Assembly: GCA_020853635.1 (NCBI GenBank)
Contig: JADYYN010000177.1
Coordinates: forward strand, 1 to 64,000
Origin: Gemmatimonadaceae bacterium
GTDB taxonomy: Bacteria; Gemmatimonadota; Gemmatimonadetes; Gemmatimonadales; Gemmatimonadaceae
Reading direction: 5' to 3'
DNA length: 64,000 nt
Shown: piece after piece, positions 51,140 to 60,593 of the stretch
How the letters are laid out: each line of letters starts with the position of its first letter
Numbering within the stretch: the first letter of the stretch is position 1
Notes under the pieces: generated by a model
Databases searched by the model: none
What the model saw: only the letters and a program-made list of their open reading frames with translations
Told to the model about the DNA's origin: nothing
Program-made: the position numbers and the translations under genes

Positions 51140-52594
51140 GTGCCCGACGTTCTTCCGCCAGACGACCTCGCGTCACTCGACGTCTCTCCCGCGCACATGC
51201 AAGCGATGGGTGAGGCGGTGGTCTCGCGTGCGGTGGCCCACCTCGCCTCGCTCGCCGCGCAGCCGAGTCATGGCGATCTCGATGCGGCGGCACGCTGTCG
51301 TGCGTTGAGCGAACCTGTGCCGGAACACGGGACCACGCTCGAGCCGCTACTCGATCTCCTGTTCGACGATCTCATCCCGCGCTCGTTCACTACCGCCGGA
51401 CCGGGCTACCTCGCGTACATCCCAGGCGGCGGCGTGTACCCGGCGGCACTCGCGGACTTCATCGCCGACACCACCAACCGCTTCACGGGCATCCGGGCCG
51501 CCGCACCGGCGCTGGTGCAACTCGAAGCCACCGCGCTCGACTGGCTGCGCGACTGGATGCAGTTCCCGGCCACCACGCGCGGGCTCTTCACCACCGGTGG
51601 CTCGATGGCGACGTTCAACGCCATCCTCTGCGCGCGCGAGCGGCACCTCGGCGTGGACATCCGGCGCGGGACGATGTACACGTCGTCGCAGGCGCATCAC
51701 TGCGTGGAGAAGTCGGCGAAGCTCGCCGGGGTCGCGCATGATCGGGTGCGTCTCATTCCGGTGGATGCGCAGCACCGGATGCGCGTCGACGCGCTCGTCG
51801 ACGCCGTGGCGGCCGATCGCGCGGCGGGACTCACGCCCTTCATGGTCGTCTCGAGCGCCGGAACGACGAACACCGGTGCCGTGGATCCGCTGGACGCCAT
51901 CGCGGATGTCGCTGCGCGCGAAGGCCTCTGGCACCATGTCGACGGCGCCTACGGCGCCTGCTTCCACCTGGTGCCCGACCTGCGTCCGTTGCTCGCCGGC
52001 CTCCCCCGTGCCGACTCGCTCACGCTCGATCCGCACAAGGGCATGTTCCTGCCGTACGGCACCGGGGCGCTGCTCGTGCGTGATGGCGAAGCGCTGCGTG
52101 CCGTGCACGCGTCGACGGCGGGTTACCTCCCCGAGAACCAGAGCGAGTTCTACGACCCGGCGCAGTACGGCCCGGATCTTTCGCGCGGATTCCCGGGCCT
52201 GCGTGTGTGGCTCACGCTCAAGATGTTCGGCGCGGCCCGCTATCGCGCCGCACTCGCCGAGAAGCGGGCGCTCGCGGTGTGGGCAGCGGATCAGGTGGCG
52301 GCGATTCCCGGGATCGTGCTGGACGCAGCGCCGCAGCTCTCGTTGTTCGCCTTCCATGTGCAGGCCCAGGATCTCGCAACGGAGAACGCGGCCACGCACG
52401 CGGTGATCGACGCCGTGACCGCGCGCGGGAAAGTGATGCTCACCGGTTGCATGGTCGACGGGCGTGCGCTGGCGCGGGTCTGCGTGTTGAGCTTCCGCAC
52501 ACGCCGCGCCGAGGTGGAGCTCGCGGTCACGCAGCTCCGCGAGGAGACGGCGCGCATCCGCGTTGCGATGGGCTTGAGCGAAGGACCGTCGTGA
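51140..52594 (+). CDS. PLP-dependent decarboxylase (aromatic-L-amino-acid decarboxylase family)
   Basis: A 484-aa group II decarboxylase. It shows YLAYIPGGGVYPAALADFI, the segment LFTTGGSMATFNAI, SSQAHHCVEKSAKLAG, the PLP aspartate region HHVDGAYGACF and the Schiff-base lysine in LDPHKGMFLPYGTG. It most likely decarboxylates an aromatic amino acid; glutamate or other substrates are possible. The start is GTG 51140; TAGTCT ten bases upstream may be its -10 box. Its stop overlaps the start of an MFS transporter gene (GTGA), so uptake or export of the amine or precursor may be linked. Confidence 0.92.
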   Translation: MPDVLPPDDLASLDVSPAHMQAMGEAVVSRAVAHLASLAAQPSHGDLDAAARCRALSEPVPEHGTTLEPLLDLLFDDLIPRSFTTAGPGYLAYIPGGGVYPAALADFIADTTNRFTGIRAAAPALVQLEATALDWLRDWMQFPATTRGLFTTGGSMATFNAILCARERHLGVDIRRGTMYTSSQAHHCVEKSAKLAGVAHDRVRLIPVDAQHRMRVDALVDAVAADRAAGLTPFMVVSSAGTTNTGAVDPLDAIADVAAREGLWHHVDGAYGACFHLVPDLRPLLAGLPRADSLTLDPHKGMFLPYGTGALLVRDGEALRAVHASTAGYLPENQSEFYDPAQYGPDLSRGFPGLRVWLTLKMFGAARYRAALAEKRALAVWAADQVAAIPGIVLDAAPQLSLFAFHVQAQDLATENAATHAVIDAVTARGKVMLTGCMVDGRALARVCVLSFRTRRAEVELAVTQLREETARIRVAMGLSEGPS

Positions 52595-53853
52595 CCGCTC
52601 CGCGCGACCCGTACATCGCACTCCGCCAGCCGCACTTCACGCGCTATCTCGTCGGCCTTTTCACGCTCACCATCGGCATCCAGATCCAAGGGACGGTCGT
52701 GGGCTGGCAGATCTACGATCTCACCAAGGACCCGCTCGCGCTCGGCTTGATCGGGCTCGCCGAGGCGTTGCCAGCGATCTCGTTCGCGCTCTACGCGGGA
52801 CATGTGGTCGATCGCCACGACCGGCGACGCGTGGTGATGCTCGCGCTCGCGGTGCTGGTCGCGTGTAGTGCGGCGCTGTGGGTGTTGGCCGCGCCGTTGA
52901 GCGAGGGTGTGGTGGCGTCGGCGCGGATCAACGCGATCTATGGTGTGATCGTCGTGAGTGGGATCGCGCGGTCGTTCCTGCAGCCGGCGCGCCAGGCGTT
53001 GTCGGCGGAGATCATGCCGCGGCACTTGTTCGCGAACGCCATCACATGGCGCAGCGGCACCTGGCAGCTGGCGGCCGTGCTCGGACCTGCCATGGGTGGC
53101 GTGCTGTACGCACTCGGTGGGACGACCCTCGCGTACTCCGTGGATGCGGTGCTCATGGTGGTCGCCTTGGGGGTCTTCGCGTCGATCGCCCATCGCTCGC
53201 CGGTGCGCGAGGAGACGCATGAGGGCGTGTTCGAGTCGGTCGCTGGCGGTATCCGGTTCGTGTTCCGCGAACCCGTGCTGCTAGGTGCGCTTACGCTGGA
53301 TCTGTTCTCCGTACTCTTCGGCGGGGCGGTGGCGCTGTTGCCCATCTTCGCCGCCGAGATCCTCGCCGTCGGGCCGACGGGTCTCGGGGTCCTGCGCGCC
53401 GCACCGGCGGTCGGCGCGGTGGCGACGAGCATCTTCGTCGCGCGGCACCACGACTTCACGCATACCGGACGGGTGCTGCTGATCGCCGTCGCGGGCTTCG
53501 GGCTGTCGATGATCGCGTTCGGACTCTCGACGAGCTTCTACCTCTCGGTGGCGATCCTCGTGGTGAGCGGCATGTGCGACATGGTCAGCGTGGTCGTACG
53601 GAGCACGCTGCTGCAGTCGCGGACGCCGGAGGGCATGCTCGGGCGCGTCTCGGCGGTGAACCAGATCTTCATCGGCTCGTCGAACGAGATCGGCGCGTTC
53701 GAGTCCGGCGTGACGGCCCGCTGGTGGGGCGCCGCACGCGCCGTGGTGGTGGGCGGCGTGCTCACGCTCGGCGTGGTCGCGAGTGTGGGGTGGTTCGTTC
53801 CCGCGCTCCGACGGCTGGGGCGGCTCCACCCGGAAGAGAAGAGCGGCGTCTAG
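52591..53853 (+). CDS. MFS transporter (EntS/DHA3-like)
   Basis: A 420-aa major facilitator with about 11-12 membrane helices. Features are YLVGLFTLTIGIQIQGTVVGWQIY, the loop motif GHVVDRHDRRRVVM after TM2, SFLQPARQALSAEIMPRHLF and the C-terminal half FGGAVALLPIFAAEILAVG. This organisation matches the EntS/MFS_3 group of exporters (siderophores, drugs). GTG 52591 overlaps the decarboxylase stop by four bases, so the two are co-translated; export of the decarboxylase product is a reasonable but untested idea. Confidence 0.88.
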   Translation: MTAPRDPYIALRQPHFTRYLVGLFTLTIGIQIQGTVVGWQIYDLTKDPLALGLIGLAEALPAISFALYAGHVVDRHDRRRVVMLALAVLVACSAALWVLAAPLSEGVVASARINAIYGVIVVSGIARSFLQPARQALSAEIMPRHLFANAITWRSGTWQLAAVLGPAMGGVLYALGGTTLAYSVDAVLMVVALGVFASIAHRSPVREETHEGVFESVAGGIRFVFREPVLLGALTLDLFSVLFGGAVALLPIFAAEILAVGPTGLGVLRAAPAVGAVATSIFVARHHDFTHTGRVLLIAVAGFGLSMIAFGLSTSFYLSVAILVVSGMCDMVSVVVRSTLLQSRTPEGMLGRVSAVNQIFIGSSNEIGAFESGVTARWWGAARAVVVGGVLTLGVVASVGWFVPALRRLGRLHPEEKSGV

Positions 53854-53919
53854 GCCAACAGGGCGGGCGCCGGATACGTACGGTAGCGAGTCGCTGGTCC
53901 TCCCCCCACTTTCCCCTGA

Positions 53920-55344
53920 ATGTCCGCACCCGCGCCGGCCAAGCCCAAGAAGACCTTCGACCGTTCCATCGTCGAAGGGCCGATCATCGCCTCGGTGTGG
54001 AAGATCGCGTGGCCGACCGTGTTGCAGAACGTGATCGGCGGTCTCCAGGGCATCGTCGACCACGCGATGGTCGGCCACTACGTCGGCTTCAACGGCAATG
54101 CCGCGGTGGGGGTGGCGTTCCAGATCTTCCTGGTGGTGATCGTGTTCGTGATGTCGATCTTCACCGGGATGGGTGTGCTCGTCGCGCGATTCGCTGGCGC
54201 CGGGGACGAACACGCGGTGAATCGCACGGTCTATCAGGCGTATCTCGCGACGCTGGTGCTCTGCCTCGGGGTGTTCGCGCCCATCGGCTGGTTCGCGTCG
54301 CCGTACCTCCTCGATCTCGTGCACGCGGCCCCCGCGGTGCAGGTGGAGGCCATCGCGTATCTCCGCACGATGTTCGTCGGTGGGATCGGCATGATGTCGC
54401 TGTTCTTCCTGGGCGGCGCGTTGCGTGCGGCGGGCGATGCGAAGACCGGACTGCACCTGGGCGTCGCGATGACCGTGCTCAATGTGCTCCTCAACATCGT
54501 CTTCATCCGTGGGCTCGGACCGATCCCGCCGATGGGCGTGATGGGCGCAGCGCTCGGTACGGTGATCGCCGGAGTGATCGTGAGTGCGTACGGCTTCTCC
54601 AAGCTCTTCTCGGGCAAGCTCGTGATCCACTGGGAGCCCGGGATGGACCGTCGCTGGGACTGGACGACGGTGAAGCAACTGTTCCGGTTCGGATTGCCGG
54701 CCGGGCTTCAAGGCATCGCGATGATCGTCGGTGGTGTGCTGCTCCTGCGCTTCATGGGCTCGCTGAAGAACAGCGCCGAGACCCAGGCGGCGTATGCGGT
54801 GGGCTACTCGGAGCTGTTCTCGTTCATCACATGGACGAGTGTCGGGTTGATGGGCGCGGCGGCGACGGTGGCGGGGCAGAATCTCGGCGCGGGGAAGCCC
54901 GAGCGTGTGGAGCGCACCGTGCAGATCGCGTCGCGTTTGGGACTCGGGATCGCGGTGTTCATCGGTCTGCTGTTCCTCACCATCCCCAAACTGCTCCTCG
55001 GCATCTTCGGCATGGATGATCCGACCGTGCTCGGCATCGGTACGGAGCTGCTGCGTTGGTTGAGTCTCTCGGGGCTCTTCATCACGGTGGCGCTCACCTA
55101 CACCGGCGGCTTGCAGGGCACGGGCGATACCAAGGGCCCGCTCTACATCACGTTGGTCTCGCAGCTCGGGATCCCGCTCGGATTGTTGACGGTGTTGCAG
55201 CTCACGCGGCCGTTGGTGCCGTCGGACATCTGGTTGGCGATCCTGCTGGGGCACATGATGCGCGCGACGTTGAGTGTGCGGCGATTCAAGGCGGGAGCGT
55301 GGCGGTCGATCCGGATCGAGGCGGAGCCGGCGCGGGTGGGGTGA
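53920..55344 (+). CDS. MATE family efflux transporter
   Basis: A 474-aa multidrug and toxin extrusion transporter with 12 predicted helices. Family signatures are WKIAWPTVLQNVIGGLQGIVDHAMVGH, LGGALRAAGDAKTG and, in the second half, TWTSVGLMGAAATVAGQNLGAGKPERV and YTGGLQGTGDTKGPLY. It exchanges cationic compounds for sodium or protons. No Shine-Dalgarno is visible before the ATG. It follows the MFS gene by 66 bases. Confidence 0.93.
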   Translation: MSAPAPAKPKKTFDRSIVEGPIIASVWKIAWPTVLQNVIGGLQGIVDHAMVGHYVGFNGNAAVGVAFQIFLVVIVFVMSIFTGMGVLVARFAGAGDEHAVNRTVYQAYLATLVLCLGVFAPIGWFASPYLLDLVHAAPAVQVEAIAYLRTMFVGGIGMMSLFFLGGALRAAGDAKTGLHLGVAMTVLNVLLNIVFIRGLGPIPPMGVMGAALGTVIAGVIVSAYGFSKLFSGKLVIHWEPGMDRRWDWTTVKQLFRFGLPAGLQGIAMIVGGVLLLRFMGSLKNSAETQAAYAVGYSELFSFITWTSVGLMGAAATVAGQNLGAGKPERVERTVQIASRLGLGIAVFIGLLFLTIPKLLLGIFGMDDPTVLGIGTELLRWLSLSGLFITVALTYTGGLQGTGDTKGPLYITLVSQLGIPLGLLTVLQLTRPLVPSDIWLAILLGHMMRATLSVRRFKAGAWRSIRIEAEPARVG

Positions 55345-55431
55345 GGGGCTGACGCGCGTCGCAGACTTGTAGGCGATGATGTGGCACAAAACGGACTGGC
55401 GCGCGGACGAGACCGGCGGAATTGTTTGGGC

Positions 55432-56517
55432 ATGAACCGTCTACATTTTGTCCTCTCCGCCTTCGTCTTGCCCGCGATGCTCGCGTGCACCCCGCGGCAG
55501 CAGACCGTTCCGGCACCGGTCGCACCGGTCGCACCGGTCGCACTGGCGCGGATGACCAGCGCGGTGTCACCGCCAGCCGAACTCTTCGTGAGCGACTCGT
55601 TCTCGGTGCGCGTGTGGGTTGATGCGAGCGGGCGGCCGCGGATGGAGACGTTCGAGACGACAGGGCTTCCGTTCCCGAGTCAGGTGGCGACTGCTCGTGC
55701 GTGGGTCGAGCGCGCGACATACACCGTGCCGACCAAGGACGGCATCTCAGTTGCAGCACCCTTCCAACTCATCGCGCGCCGCAGCGCGGCTACTGCGGCA
55801 CAGCAGTCCCGTGACACGGAGATGGGGACCGCGCGCGAGATGGGTCTGGCCGCTGGCGGCCGAATGGAGTTCGCCAGCATGGTCCCCATGTCGGCTCCGC
55901 CGCGCGCCGCGCTGGGAGATCAACCACTCACGGTCTCGGTGACCATCGGCGCTGATGCGCGGCCACGAATGGAAACCATCGTCATCGAAGGGGCCTCGTC
56001 GAGCGCCGCGGAACTCGCCATCCGGCAATGGATCGAGTCAGCGACGTATCGAGTCCCGATGCGAGATGGAGTCCCGGTCGAAGCACCACTTCGGGCGCGG
56101 ACACAGATCGCGCCGGACGGACAGTTCTCCATCGGATTCAGTTCAACCGTCAGTCGGAGCCCGATGCGCCGGCGCGATGGTGACCTCGATGCCGCCGCAC
56201 GCCGCGCTGCGGCCCCAAAAGCGGCGCGACTCAGCATCGATGTTGATACGCTTCGTCTCCGTCCCGGTCAGCGCGCCGGTTTCGGCGAAGCGTTTCGCGT
56301 GATGGTCATCGACAGCACCGGCGCATCGCTCGGCTACCTGGGTACATTCACCAGCCAACTCCGAGGGGACGCCGCGACGATCGACGGCTCGTCGGTCACC
56401 GGCGTCAAGCCAGGAGTCGCGCAACTCCGGCTCCTCTGGCCGACTGCACAGTGGGAAGGACGAAGCGACCCGCCGCTCTCGGTGACCGTGTTCGTGATCG
56501 TGGGCGAGTCACCGTAG
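55432..56517 (+). CDS. lipoprotein with two TonB-C-like repeats and an Ig-like domain
   Basis: A 361-aa lipoprotein (lipobox VLPAMLACTP, then an APVAPVAPVA linker). Two related segments, FSVRVWVDASGRPRMETFETTG...WVERATYTVPTKDGISVAAP and LTVSVTIGADARPRMETIVIEG...WIESATYRVPMRDGVPVEAP, follow the beta-alpha-beta pattern of TonB C-terminal domains without a TonB N-terminus. The C-terminal 90 residues resemble a Big-2-like Ig domain (LRLRPGQRAGFGEAF, GSSVTGVKPGVAQLRL). The function is unknown; ATG 55432 gives the lipoprotein leader. Confidence 0.72.
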   Translation: MNRLHFVLSAFVLPAMLACTPRQQTVPAPVAPVAPVALARMTSAVSPPAELFVSDSFSVRVWVDASGRPRMETFETTGLPFPSQVATARAWVERATYTVPTKDGISVAAPFQLIARRSAATAAQQSRDTEMGTAREMGLAAGGRMEFASMVPMSAPPRAALGDQPLTVSVTIGADARPRMETIVIEGASSSAAELAIRQWIESATYRVPMRDGVPVEAPLRARTQIAPDGQFSIGFSSTVSRSPMRRRDGDLDAAARRAAAPKAARLSIDVDTLRLRPGQRAGFGEAFRVMVIDSTGASLGYLGTFTSQLRGDAATIDGSSVTGVKPGVAQLRLLWPTAQWEGRSDPPLSVTVFVIVGESP

Positions 56518-56550
56518 CGGAAGCTCGGCCACGGTACCACCTTCCCCCGC

Positions 56551-58719
56551 ATGGCTCCCACGCGCCACACGCGCACCTGCACACTTTGCGAGGCCATGTG
56601 CGGCCTCGTCATCACCACCGAGGGCGACCGCGTCACCGACATCCGCGGTGACGCGGATGATTCGCTGAGTCGCGGGCATATCTGTCCGAAAGCGGTCGCG
56701 CTGCAGGACATCCACACCGACCCCGACCGCATCCGCACGCCGATGCGCCGTATGGGCACGCGATGGGAAGCGATCAGCTGGGACCAGGCGCTGCATGAAG
56801 CGATCGATGGACTCGCCCGTGTGCGCGCCGCCCACGGCCGCGATGCCGTCGCCACGTACGCGGGCAACCCGACCGTGCATTCGCTCGGCGCGATGCTGTT
56901 CCTGCCGGAGTTCACGCGCGCCCTCGGCAGCCGCAACCGCTACACGGCGACCTCGGTCGATCAGCTGCCCGCGCACGTCGCGGCGATGCACTGCTTCGGG
57001 CATCCGCTGCTCATCCCGATCCCCGACCTCGATCGCACCGAGCATCTGGTGATCCTCGGTGCGAATCCGGTGGTGTCGAACGGGAGCTTGATGACCGCAC
57101 CCGGTGTGGGTGATCGGTTGCGGGCGATCCAAGCGCGCGGCGGACGGGTGGTGGTGATCGATCCGCGCCGCACCGAGACCGCTGCGCTCGCCGACCAGCA
57201 CCTGTTCATCGTACCGGGCACGGACGCACTGCGGCTCGCCGCATTGCTGCAGGTGATCTTCGCCGAAGGACTCGCGCAACTCGGTCGACTCGGCACGTTC
57301 ACGCATGGACTCGATGCGCTCAAGGCGGCGGTCGCACCGTTCACGCCCGACCGCGTCAGCGCCGCGACAGGCATCGATGCGCCGACCATCCGCACACTGG
57401 CGGTGGACATCGCCACGGCCACGCGCGGCGCGGTGTACGGTCGCGTGGGTGTGTCGATGCAGGAGTTCGGCGGTGTCGCGACCTGGCTGATCACGGCGCT
57501 CAACGTGGTGTGCGGGCGAATCGACGCCGAGGGCGGCGCGATGTTTGCGACGCCGGCGGTTGATCTCGTCCGCGATGATCAACGCGGACGCGCGGTGCGC
57601 TTCGGTCGATGGACGAGTCGCGTGCGCGGTCTGCCGGAGTTCGCCGGCGAACTGCCCGTCGCCACGCTGGCCGACGAGCTCGACACGCCGGGCACGGGCC
57701 AAGTGCGCGCACTCGTCACGCATGCGGGCAATCCGGTGTTGTCCACACCGAACGGCGGGCGACTCGACCGAGCGATCGCGGGACTCGATTTCTTCGTCGC
57801 GATCGATTTCTACCGCAACGAGACCACGCGTCACGCACATCTGATCCTTCCGCCGACATCGCCGCTGGAGCGCGAGCACTACGATCTCGCGTTCCACATG
57901 CTCGCCGTGCGCGACACCGCGAAGTACTCGGCGCCGGTGTTCCCGCGACCCGCCGAAGCGCGCCATGACTGGGAGATCCTCGCGGCGTTGACCGCCGGAC
58001 TCGGGGACTCGGCCACGATCCGCTGGCGTGCGCGAGTGCTCGGCACGCTCGGGCCCGCGCGCATGCTCGACCACGCGTTGCGCACCGGCGTGTACGGCAG
58101 TGGCTACTCGCCGTTCGGCAAGGGCGCTTCACTGAGCCAGCTGCGCCGGGCGCCGCACGGCGTCGACTTGGGCGCGCTCAAGCCAGTGCTTCCGGATCGG
58201 CTCCGCACTGCCGACCGCCGCATCCACCTCGCGCCGGATCTCTTCCTGCGCGATCTGTTGCGGCTCGAGCAGTCGCTCGCGCAATCATCGAACGGTCTCG
58301 CGCTCATCGGTCGCCGCGCACTCCGCTCCTGCAACAGCTGGATGCACAACAGCGAGCGATTGGTGCGCGGCAAGCGCCGCTGCACCTTGCTCATGCATCC
58401 ACTCGATGCTGAACAACGCGGTCTCGCCGACGGCGACCAGGTCCGCGTGACGTCGCGCGCCGGCAGCGTGGATGTGGAGCTCGAGGTCAGTGATGAAGTC
58501 ATGGCCGGCGTCGTGAGCCTGCCACACGGCTGGGGCCACGGGCGCGACGGCACCGCGATGGGTGTCGCGGCGCGACACCCTGGCGTGAGCATCAACGACC
58601 TCACCGACGAATGGCGCATCGACGTGCTCACCGGCAACGCGGCGTTCAGCGGCGTGCCCGTGAAGGTCCAGGCCGCCGCGTTCGTCCCTGACTTCGACAC
58701 CGCAGGATTGCGCGCATGA
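56551..58719 (+). CDS. molybdopterin-dependent oxidoreductase (4Fe-4S)
   Basis: A 722-aa DMSO-reductase-family enzyme. The N-terminal cluster ligands are CTLCEAMCG followed by HICPKA. MoCo-binding segments are YAGNPTVHSL, LVILGANPVVSNG, GGRVVVIDPRRTETA and, near the C-terminus, the MopB dinucleotide-binding domain (DGDQVRVTSRAGSVDVELEV, LPHGWGHGRDG). No twin-arginine leader is seen, so it is cytoplasmic and probably acts like a soluble formate-dehydrogenase or nitrate-reductase-type enzyme with a small-molecule substrate. It overlaps the DUF2779 gene by ATGA. No electron-transfer subunit is adjacent. Confidence 0.92.
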   Translation: MAPTRHTRTCTLCEAMCGLVITTEGDRVTDIRGDADDSLSRGHICPKAVALQDIHTDPDRIRTPMRRMGTRWEAISWDQALHEAIDGLARVRAAHGRDAVATYAGNPTVHSLGAMLFLPEFTRALGSRNRYTATSVDQLPAHVAAMHCFGHPLLIPIPDLDRTEHLVILGANPVVSNGSLMTAPGVGDRLRAIQARGGRVVVIDPRRTETAALADQHLFIVPGTDALRLAALLQVIFAEGLAQLGRLGTFTHGLDALKAAVAPFTPDRVSAATGIDAPTIRTLAVDIATATRGAVYGRVGVSMQEFGGVATWLITALNVVCGRIDAEGGAMFATPAVDLVRDDQRGRAVRFGRWTSRVRGLPEFAGELPVATLADELDTPGTGQVRALVTHAGNPVLSTPNGGRLDRAIAGLDFFVAIDFYRNETTRHAHLILPPTSPLEREHYDLAFHMLAVRDTAKYSAPVFPRPAEARHDWEILAALTAGLGDSATIRWRARVLGTLGPARMLDHALRTGVYGSGYSPFGKGASLSQLRRAPHGVDLGALKPVLPDRLRTADRRIHLAPDLFLRDLLRLEQSLAQSSNGLALIGRRALRSCNSWMHNSERLVRGKRRCTLLMHPLDAEQRGLADGDQVRVTSRAGSVDVELEVSDEVMAGVVSLPHGWGHGRDGTAMGVAARHPGVSINDLTDEWRIDVLTGNAAFSGVPVKVQAAAFVPDFDTAGLRA

Positions 58720-60593
58720 CTTCTCCCGATTCGTCGAGCCACTCGACCGCCACCCCGCGCACACACACGTTGTCGAAGTCGGACTTCAAACTCGCGCGCA
58801 GCTGCCCCAGCAAGCTCTACTACCGCGAGCTGCGCTACCCCGACGTGCTCGCCGAGGACGAATATCTCGCGTTCCTCGCCGAGGGCGGCTACATGGTGGA
58901 AGCGCTCGCCAAACAGCTCTTCCCCGGCGGCATCACGCTCGAGTACGGGAAGAGTCCGCAGCAAGACTATGAGACCACGCGTGCACATCTCGATGCGGCA
59001 GCGACGGTCACGCTCTTCGAAGCCACGCTGTTCGACGGACAGCGCCTCGCGCGCGTCGACATCCTCAAGCGCACGCCGGCCGGCTTCGACCTGTACGAGG
59101 TGAAGTCGTCGTCCTTCGATCCCGAGGACGCGACGAAGCGCTTCGACAAGACGGGCAGCTACTTCAAGAACATGACCAAGCCCTTCAGCATCAACGCGAA
59201 GTGGCGGGACTATCTCGAGGACGTCACATATCAGGTCGCGTTGCTCAAGGACCTGTTCCCGGGTGTGCCGGTGCGGCCGCACCTCATCCTCATGAACAAG
59301 GACAGCGTCGCCGCCTACGACGGCATGCCGAGCTGGGTGCAAGTGCGCCGCAGTCCGGACGGGCGATTGCACAGCGCGGAGTTCGTGGGTGACGCAGAGG
59401 CCGTGCGTCGCGACCCGCTCACCATCGGACTCGATGTGAGCGACGAGGTCGCCGAATTGGAGCGCGAGGTGCGGGAGGCCACGCAGATGTTCCTCGGCAC
59501 ACTCGCCCCGCAGCTCACGCGGTTGGTCGCACCGCTGGGCAGTCATTGCAAGAAATGCGAGTTCCGCGTCGCTCCGGAGGAGTCGCGCAACGGCTTCCTC
59601 GAATGCTGGGGGGCGCGCGGCAACGTGACACCGCACGTACTCGATCTCTATCGCGGCGGCCCGCTCGTCGACACGCTCATCGAACTGGGCGTCGATCACC
59701 TGCATGACATCACCGAAGAGCACTTCGGTGGCAAGTCCGGCGTGTACGCCGAGCGGCAGCGCGTGCAGGTCACACAATCAAGAAAAGGCGAGGAGTGGTT
59801 CGACGCCGCGTTGCACGAAGCGATGGCCACGGCGCGGTATCCGCTGCACTTCGTCGACTTCGAGGCGGCGACCATCGCGGTCCCGCACCACAAGGGCATG
59901 GGACCTTACGGACAACTCGCGTTTCAGTGGAGCTGCCACACGCTGCGCGCACCCGGCGCGCCGCTCGAGCATCGCGCGTTCCTTAACCGCGACGACCGTT
60001 GGCCCAACGAGGAGTTCGCGCGCACACTGCGCGACGCACTCGGCGCGGCCGGCACGATCCTCGTGTGGTCGGACTTCGAGCGCACGGTCATGAATCGGGT
60101 CGCTGGCGAGCTCACCACACTCGGCAGCGGTGACGCGACACTCGCCGAGTGGCTGACGCTGGCCGCACGGAAGCCGGGGGACGACGGCGCGCGCATGCTC
60201 GATATGCTCAAGCTCTGTCGCGCGTTCTACTATCACCCAGGCATGGGGGGCAGCAACAGCATCAAGATGGTGCTCGACGCACTCTGGAAGTCGTCGGAGA
60301 CCGTGCGCACGCGCTTCGTCGCACTCGCCGGCCGCGACGGCGATCCGGAGCGCGGGCCGTATGCGACGCTGCCGTCGTCATTGATCGACGAGTCCGAGGA
60401 GAAGGTGAACGAAGGCACCGGCGCCATGCGGGCCTACTTCGCGATGGCCTACGGCGCGGAGAAGGACGACCCTGCGGCGAAGGAGCAGTGGGCCAACCTC
60501 CTGCTCGAGTACTGCAAACTCGACACACTCGCCATGGTGCTCATCTGGGAGCACTGGGAGCGGCTCATGGGACGCGGGGCGGCACCCGGTTGA
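58716..60593 (+). CDS. DUF2779 protein: Cas4-like nuclease fused to DEDD exonuclease-like domain
   Basis: A 625-aa protein. The N-terminal part has a PD-(D/E)XK RecB/Cas4-type nuclease pattern: Asp115 (LARVDIL), Glu128-Val-Lys130 (FDLYEVKSSS) and Gln173 (TYQVALLK). Candidate Fe-S cysteines are Cys30 (ARSCPSKLYY), Cys278, Cys281 (HCKKCEF) and Cys297. The C-terminal part looks like a DEDD 3'-5' exonuclease fold: Asp381/Glu383 (HFVDFEAAT), Asp453 (VWSDFERTV) and an Asp in YCKLDTLAM. It probably acts on DNA or RNA in repair or defence. ATG 58716 overlaps the molybdoenzyme stop, an unexpected coupling. Confidence 0.82.
   Translation: MTSPDSSSHSTATPRTHTLSKSDFKLARSCPSKLYYRELRYPDVLAEDEYLAFLAEGGYMVEALAKQLFPGGITLEYGKSPQQDYETTRAHLDAAATVTLFEATLFDGQRLARVDILKRTPAGFDLYEVKSSSFDPEDATKRFDKTGSYFKNMTKPFSINAKWRDYLEDVTYQVALLKDLFPGVPVRPHLILMNKDSVAAYDGMPSWVQVRRSPDGRLHSAEFVGDAEAVRRDPLTIGLDVSDEVAELEREVREATQMFLGTLAPQLTRLVAPLGSHCKKCEFRVAPEESRNGFLECWGARGNVTPHVLDLYRGGPLVDTLIELGVDHLHDITEEHFGGKSGVYAERQRVQVTQSRKGEEWFDAALHEAMATARYPLHFVDFEAATIAVPHHKGMGPYGQLAFQWSCHTLRAPGAPLEHRAFLNRDDRWPNEEFARTLRDALGAAGTILVWSDFERTVMNRVAGELTTLGSGDATLAEWLTLAARKPGDDGARMLDMLKLCRAFYYHPGMGGSNSIKMVLDALWKSSETVRTRFVALAGRDGDPERGPYATLPSSLIDESEEKVNEGTGAMRAYFAMAYGAEKDDPAAKEQWANLLLEYCKLDTLAMVLIWEHWERLMGRGAAPG

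Follow-up and report, generated by a model that had tools for sequence, protein, structure and literature searches.

A long-form DUF2779 protein with predicted Cas4-type nuclease and DEDD exonuclease domains beside an incidental molybdoenzyme gene in Gemmatimonadaceae

In a 64,000-nucleotide stretch of DNA from a Gemmatimonadaceae bacterium (the window; contig JADYYN010000177.1), a gene at positions 58716–60593 encodes a protein of the DUF2779 family. We assign a probability of about 0.72 to the view that this protein is an ordinary long-form DUF2779 member, in which a known fusion joins a Cas4/RecB-type PD-(D/E)XK domain with an iron–sulfur (Fe–S) cluster to a DEDDy-type 3′–5′ exonuclease domain, with DNA-end processing as its predicted function. 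An earlier reading of the letters and translated open reading frames (the sequence-only reading) had proposed a Cas4-type PD-(D/E)XK/Fe–S domain and a DEDD-type exonuclease in one chain, and this architecture is supported by motifs, family matches in relatives, AlphaFold and, with weak E-values, Foldseek. The same reading saw no obvious precedent for the fusion, a view contradicted by Majorek et al. 2014 (PMC3985635). In that paper, PF11074 (DUF2779, family F.17) and COG2251 are placed in a 3′–5′ exonuclease clade and both contain DUF83 (Cas4), which resembles PD-(D/E)XK nucleases; the two-nuclease architecture had therefore already been described there for both families.

Two predicted nuclease domains with invariant active-site residues

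The DUF2779 model PF11074 matches residues 378–515 of the window protein with an E-value of 2.2e-24 and 86.6 bits, against a curated cut-off of 23.3. A scan of genome contigs and a search of 149 related genomes, of which 64 had a match, supplied the homologues; the alignment comprises 36 sequences with identities of 26–77%. The gene and the features of its product, with conservation counts from this alignment, are as follows.

58716–60593, forward strand: DUF2779-family protein, long form (Cas4-like plus DEDD exonuclease-like), 625 amino acids, ATG start (open reading frame list, PF11074, AlphaFold)
58752–59651, forward strand: Cas4/RecB-type PD-(D/E)XK domain, about residues 13–312 (invariant residues; family matches in relatives; Foldseek with weak E-value)
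58803–58805, forward strand: Cys30, predicted Fe–S ligand 1 (36/36)
59058–59060, forward strand: Asp115, predicted PD-(D/E)XK metal ligand (36/36)
59097–59105, forward strand: Glu128-Val-Lys130, (D/E)XK motif (Glu128 and Lys130 36/36)
59547–59606, forward strand: Cys278-x2-Cys281-x15-Cys297, predicted Fe–S ligands 2–4 (36/36)
59652–59840, forward strand: helical linker, about residues 313–375, possibly helix-hairpin-helix-like (AlphaFold helices 315–323, 334–337 and 343–357)
59841–60590, forward strand: DEDD-type (RNase H-fold) 3′–5′ exonuclease-like domain, about residues 376–625 (PF11074; model; Foldseek with weak E-value)
59856–59864, forward strand: Asp381-Phe-Glu383, exonuclease motif I (36/36)
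60078–60080, forward strand: Glu455, exonuclease motif II acid, Glu replacing the usual Asp (36/36 Glu)
60510–60524, forward strand: Tyr599-xxx-Asp603, exonuclease motif III, DEDDy type (36/36), within a long C-terminal helix, 586–617

Asp115, Glu128, Lys130 and the four cysteines, together with the exonuclease residues Asp381, Glu383, Glu455, Tyr599 and Asp603, are identical in every aligned homologue down to 26% identity, a conservation well beyond chance. The D...EVK...Q motif and four cysteines picked out in the sequence-only reading thus hold apart from the glutamine, Gln173, which is kept in only 32 of the 36 sequences. Its second pattern, D-F-E...D...D, needs correction at the third acid, which is Glu455, the actual pattern being D381-x-E383 / E455 / Y599-xxx-D603. 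Asp496, kept in 35/36, would occupy the position of a structural, non-catalytic Asp in related exonucleases. Compared with its nearest relative, in genome G003 (78% identity; Nei–Gojobori), the nuclease gene has a ratio of non-synonymous to synonymous substitution rates (dN/dS) of about 0.23 over the whole chain, and values of about 0.26 for the N-terminal and 0.21 for the C-terminal part place both halves under purifying selection. The frame is a real gene maintained by such selection.

Profile matches among the aligned members point to the same two domains. On the nuclease side, Cas_Cas4 matches 8/36 members (best E 0.0071), PDDEXK_1 matches 3/36 (best E 3e-5) and the NCBIfam cas4 model matches some related members; RNase_H_2 matches 3/36 (best E 0.0013). 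The TM0106 RecB-like nuclease model TIGR03491 matches 10/36 at E up to 0.1 (best 3e-14) and the UU173 family model 12/36 (best E 1.5e-13). A helix-hairpin-helix-type Pfam model matches two homologues weakly (E up to 0.1, best 0.001). The window protein itself matches none of the Cas_Cas4, PDDEXK_1, RNase_H_2, TIGR03491 (at E up to 1) and UU173 models, and a PHROGs scan returned a chance-level match only.

The fold prediction proposed as a check on the sequence-only reading agrees with both halves. AlphaFold modelled the whole chain, on the alignment, with a mean predicted local distance difference test score (pLDDT) of 93.8 and a predicted template modelling score (pTM) of 0.90, and the C-terminal half alone with a pLDDT of 94.2 and a pTM of 0.92. 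Among the first Foldseek matches of the whole chain in the PDB are Cas4/Cas1/Cas2 complexes, an Argonaute-associated Cas4-family protein (ACE1), MGME1 and AddAB, and among those listed for the C-terminal half are ERI2, viral family-B polymerases (PolB exonuclease domains), 3′hExo, Maelstrom and RNase H.

Several points weigh against reading the protein as a two-domain DNA-end nuclease. It has no direct match to any Cas4 model in the Pfam and NCBIfam scans, and it is the conserved residues, the matches of its relatives and the predicted structure that support a Cas4-type domain. Neither the protein nor the family profile has a sequence relative in the PDB, and all Foldseek E-values exceed 0.001, with low TM-scores; because no match reaches E 0.001, the folds are assigned from the concordance of sequence motifs, family models and match ranking and not from a strong structural score. 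The Glu in place of Asp at motif II could weaken or alter exonuclease activity, and the sequence does not settle whether DNA or RNA would be the substrate.

The motif II substitution also bears on an alternative in which the protein is degenerate or structural, with one or both nuclease sites inactive and the folds serving only to bind nucleic acid. Glu455, which opens a helix in the model, would fit such a loss; however, no predicted catalytic residue varies at either site, even at 26% identity, and the same Glu occurs in translated COG2251/TM0106 relatives of the same class (YHYxxYE, plus a Y-N-x-x-D motif III) and is therefore common to both families. That COG2251/TM0106 proteins share it suggests a family-wide active-site variant rather than decay, and we regard a degenerate protein as improbable. 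We found no statement of this shared Glu in the literature consulted, in a search that was not exhaustive. The COG2251/TM0106 proteins that carry the motif II Glu as in DUF2779 lie at loci L097–L101 and L103, in frames of about 930–1310 amino acids.

For the window protein as an active nuclease, we infer catalytic activity, an Fe–S cluster, a substrate and a biological role from these features. A cluster on Cys30, Cys278, Cys281 and Cys297 would hold the N-terminal domain together; this domain would capture single-stranded DNA at ends, flaps or gaps, which it would cleave with a metal ion and Asp115, Glu128 and Lys130. The C-terminal domain would trim 3′ ends through two-metal catalysis by Asp381, Glu383, Glu455 and Asp603, with Tyr599 positioning the attacking water. 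Jointly, the two domains may process DNA ends in repair, or they may break down DNA that is damaged or foreign. A single-stranded-DNA end-processing nuclease is most likely, and the fold families favour a role in DNA repair or DNA degradation.

The molybdoenzyme overlap is recent and incidental

The sequence-only reading had recognized that the nuclease frame overlaps a molybdoenzyme gene, and the overlap is confirmed as a 4-bp ATGA.

56551–58719, forward strand: molybdopterin oxidoreductase with Fe4S4 domain, 722 amino acids, incidental neighbour (profile matches)
58716–58719, forward strand: ATGA stop/start overlap of 4 bp between the molybdoenzyme and nuclease genes (sequence; common only to the window and G003)

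None of the NCBIfam matches of the molybdoenzyme, among them formate dehydrogenase and nitrate reductase, comes close to its cut-off. The overlap had suggested a redox-linked unit for nucleic-acid processing or defence, in which molybdoenzyme and nuclease are co-expressed and act together. The ATGA in the window and its retention in G003 agree with this, as does the adjacency of the two genes in G006, where a gap replaces the overlap. However, when the window neighbours were searched by tblastn against homologous loci, the molybdoenzyme adjoined the nuclease only in the window, G003 (L002/L042) and G006 (L044), three genomes that belong to one genus, and the pairing was absent from every other full-length homologue locus examined. 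Across the 31 relatives searched genome-wide, a close molybdoenzyme homologue occurs in four: the window genome, G003, G006 and G008. Genomes G005, G010, G012 and G016 encode nucleases 61–65% identical to that of the window and contain no close molybdoenzyme homologue (completeness 96% for G005 and 99–100% for the others); conversely, G008 encodes a molybdoenzyme of 70% identity with unrelated genes after it, and the genome search gave no match to the nuclease there. The nuclease gene of G010 still has the MATE and decarboxylase genes upstream of it, with the molybdoenzyme absent.

Because the pairing is found in three genomes only and either gene can occur alone, it is a recent local arrangement, lineage-specific and incidental. 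The proposed functional link between nuclease and molybdoenzyme is not supported: the neighbourhood survey found no conserved pairing in relatives, the outcome named beforehand as speaking against the coupling. A redox-coupled operon was ruled out on the confinement of the pairing to one genus and the separate occurrence of the genes, and we give a redox-linked unit hardly any credence.

The molybdoenzyme is the last gene of a decarboxylase / MFS / MATE / molybdoenzyme block upstream of the nuclease (window positions 51140–58719) that is kept in G003. The G010 block retains the decarboxylase and MATE genes, without MFS and molybdoenzyme beside the nuclease; since only those two are kept, genes have been gained or lost inside the block.

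Distribution and gene neighbourhoods

DUF2779 is patchily distributed: of 298 genomes sampled in the phylum, 84 contain it, as do 43 of 119 genera. Homologues also occur in 30 plasmid records, mostly in short form, and no phage record carries a nuclease homologue. We found no gene neighbourhood conserved across lineages among the homologue loci examined.

Patchy spread and plasmid carriage are what would be expected if DUF2779 were an anti-phage or anti-plasmid nuclease that degrades foreign DNA as an accessory part of variable defence islands. Further points in this direction are that some long-form loci have a type III methyltransferase with a DrmD-like helicase, a ThsA-like protein or PDC-S11 nearby; that short-form plasmid copies adjoin AAA ATPase and WYL genes; and that the matches from 20 random control regions, among the families listed, were mostly to generic kinases, with none to WYL. 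Against it, the neighbours vary by locus, no phage record has a homologue, the neighbours counted are few, and the control does not amount to a formal test. PADLOC output consists of family counts and not per-locus statistics, so the defence and WYL neighbourhood signal is a lead rather than a test. At the window itself, the protein matches no PADLOC model at E up to 10 and no defence genes were seen around it: the identified neighbours are MFS, MATE, decarboxylase, molybdoenzyme and phosphodiesterase genes, with none of the methyltransferase/helicase, ThsA, PDC-S11 or WYL associations. The link to defence is no more than suggestive, in distant relatives, and we consider a defence nuclease rather unlikely.

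PADLOC matches to SspA/DndA and PD-T4-6 near homologues were judged generic (cysteine desulfurase-like and kinase) and were not counted; kinase models dominate the control too. A Cas4 linked to clustered regularly interspaced short palindromic repeats (CRISPR) was rejected for the window genome as far as it is assembled (about 84% complete), since no Cas1 was found in that assembly. Cas1 is also missing from the Pfam families listed for homologue neighbours.

Individual loci show the following arrangements. On plasmids of Diaphorobacter and Rhodoferax the gene order is AAA ATPase, short-form DUF2779, WYL, followed on the Rhodoferax plasmid by a PDC-M27 candidate defence system. A Sphingobium plasmid has the same three genes together in another order and orientation, and an Aliarcobacter butzleri plasmid has short-form DUF2779 and WYL without the AAA ATPase. 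The plasmid short-form loci span L109 4941–9675, L110 5122–9736, L111 4910–8891 and L117 5995–8334. Among long-form genes, those at L058 (G029) and L059 (G020) are divergent from a type III methyltransferase, with a DrmD-like SNF2 helicase also near the gene at L058. At L054 (5939–8088) and L060 (5952–8014) tandem genes for WYL/PafBC-like regulators come after the long-form gene, in the same orientation.

A broader and rather speculative proposal, which we hold to be doubtful, would treat DUF2779 and COG2251 as one class of Fe–S nuclease-exonucleases with a distinctive DE-E-D-y site, in which the motif II acid is Glu. These would act as stand-alone DNA-end trimmers, equivalent, outside CRISPR, to Cas4 with a DnaQ-like trimmer, and would have been recruited in some lineages by WYL/PafBC-type DNA-damage or defence regulons.

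Comparison with known systems

The window gene is in itself ordinary, one further sequence in a family that was defined by computation in 2014. Its slight importance lies in this family, which is widespread and present on plasmids and for which we found no bench report in the literature searched. The conserved residues of the window protein provide a ready set of point mutants, and recognition of the molybdoenzyme overlap as incidental averts a misleading redox–nuclease story.

The protein shares with DUF2779 the combination of a DUF83/Cas4-like domain and an exonuclease-clade RNase H-like domain given in PMC3985635, and its catalytic residues are no different. It differs from many members in length, being of the long form (about 600–660 amino acids), whereas many others, including most plasmid copies, have about 490–510. 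COG2251/TM0106 proteins (TIGR03491, PF13482) likewise have a Cas4-like domain with C-terminal cysteines, a linker and a DEDD domain, in the same order and with the same catalytic residues. The Gemmatimonadota copies, however, extend into a long C-terminal region (about 930–1310 amino acids in all), a region where, as PMC3985635 states, tandem AAA domains occur frequently, whereas the window protein stops after its exonuclease domain.

Similar to Cas4, the window protein has a PD-(D/E)XK core with one N-terminal and three C-terminal cysteines, predicted to hold a cluster; it departs from Cas4 in lacking a CRISPR context and in carrying a fused exonuclease domain. The DEDDh exonuclease MrfB/YprB, as described in PMC11194089, shares the DEDD-type core, with Asp172 at the position of Glu455. 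MrfB uses a His and carries a TPR domain; in the window protein there are Tyr599 and a Cas4-like domain instead. Finally, the RecB-type nuclease of the window protein resembles those of the AddB, Dna2 and MGME1 type; in contrast to AddAB and Dna2, which both carry helicase parts, it has none.

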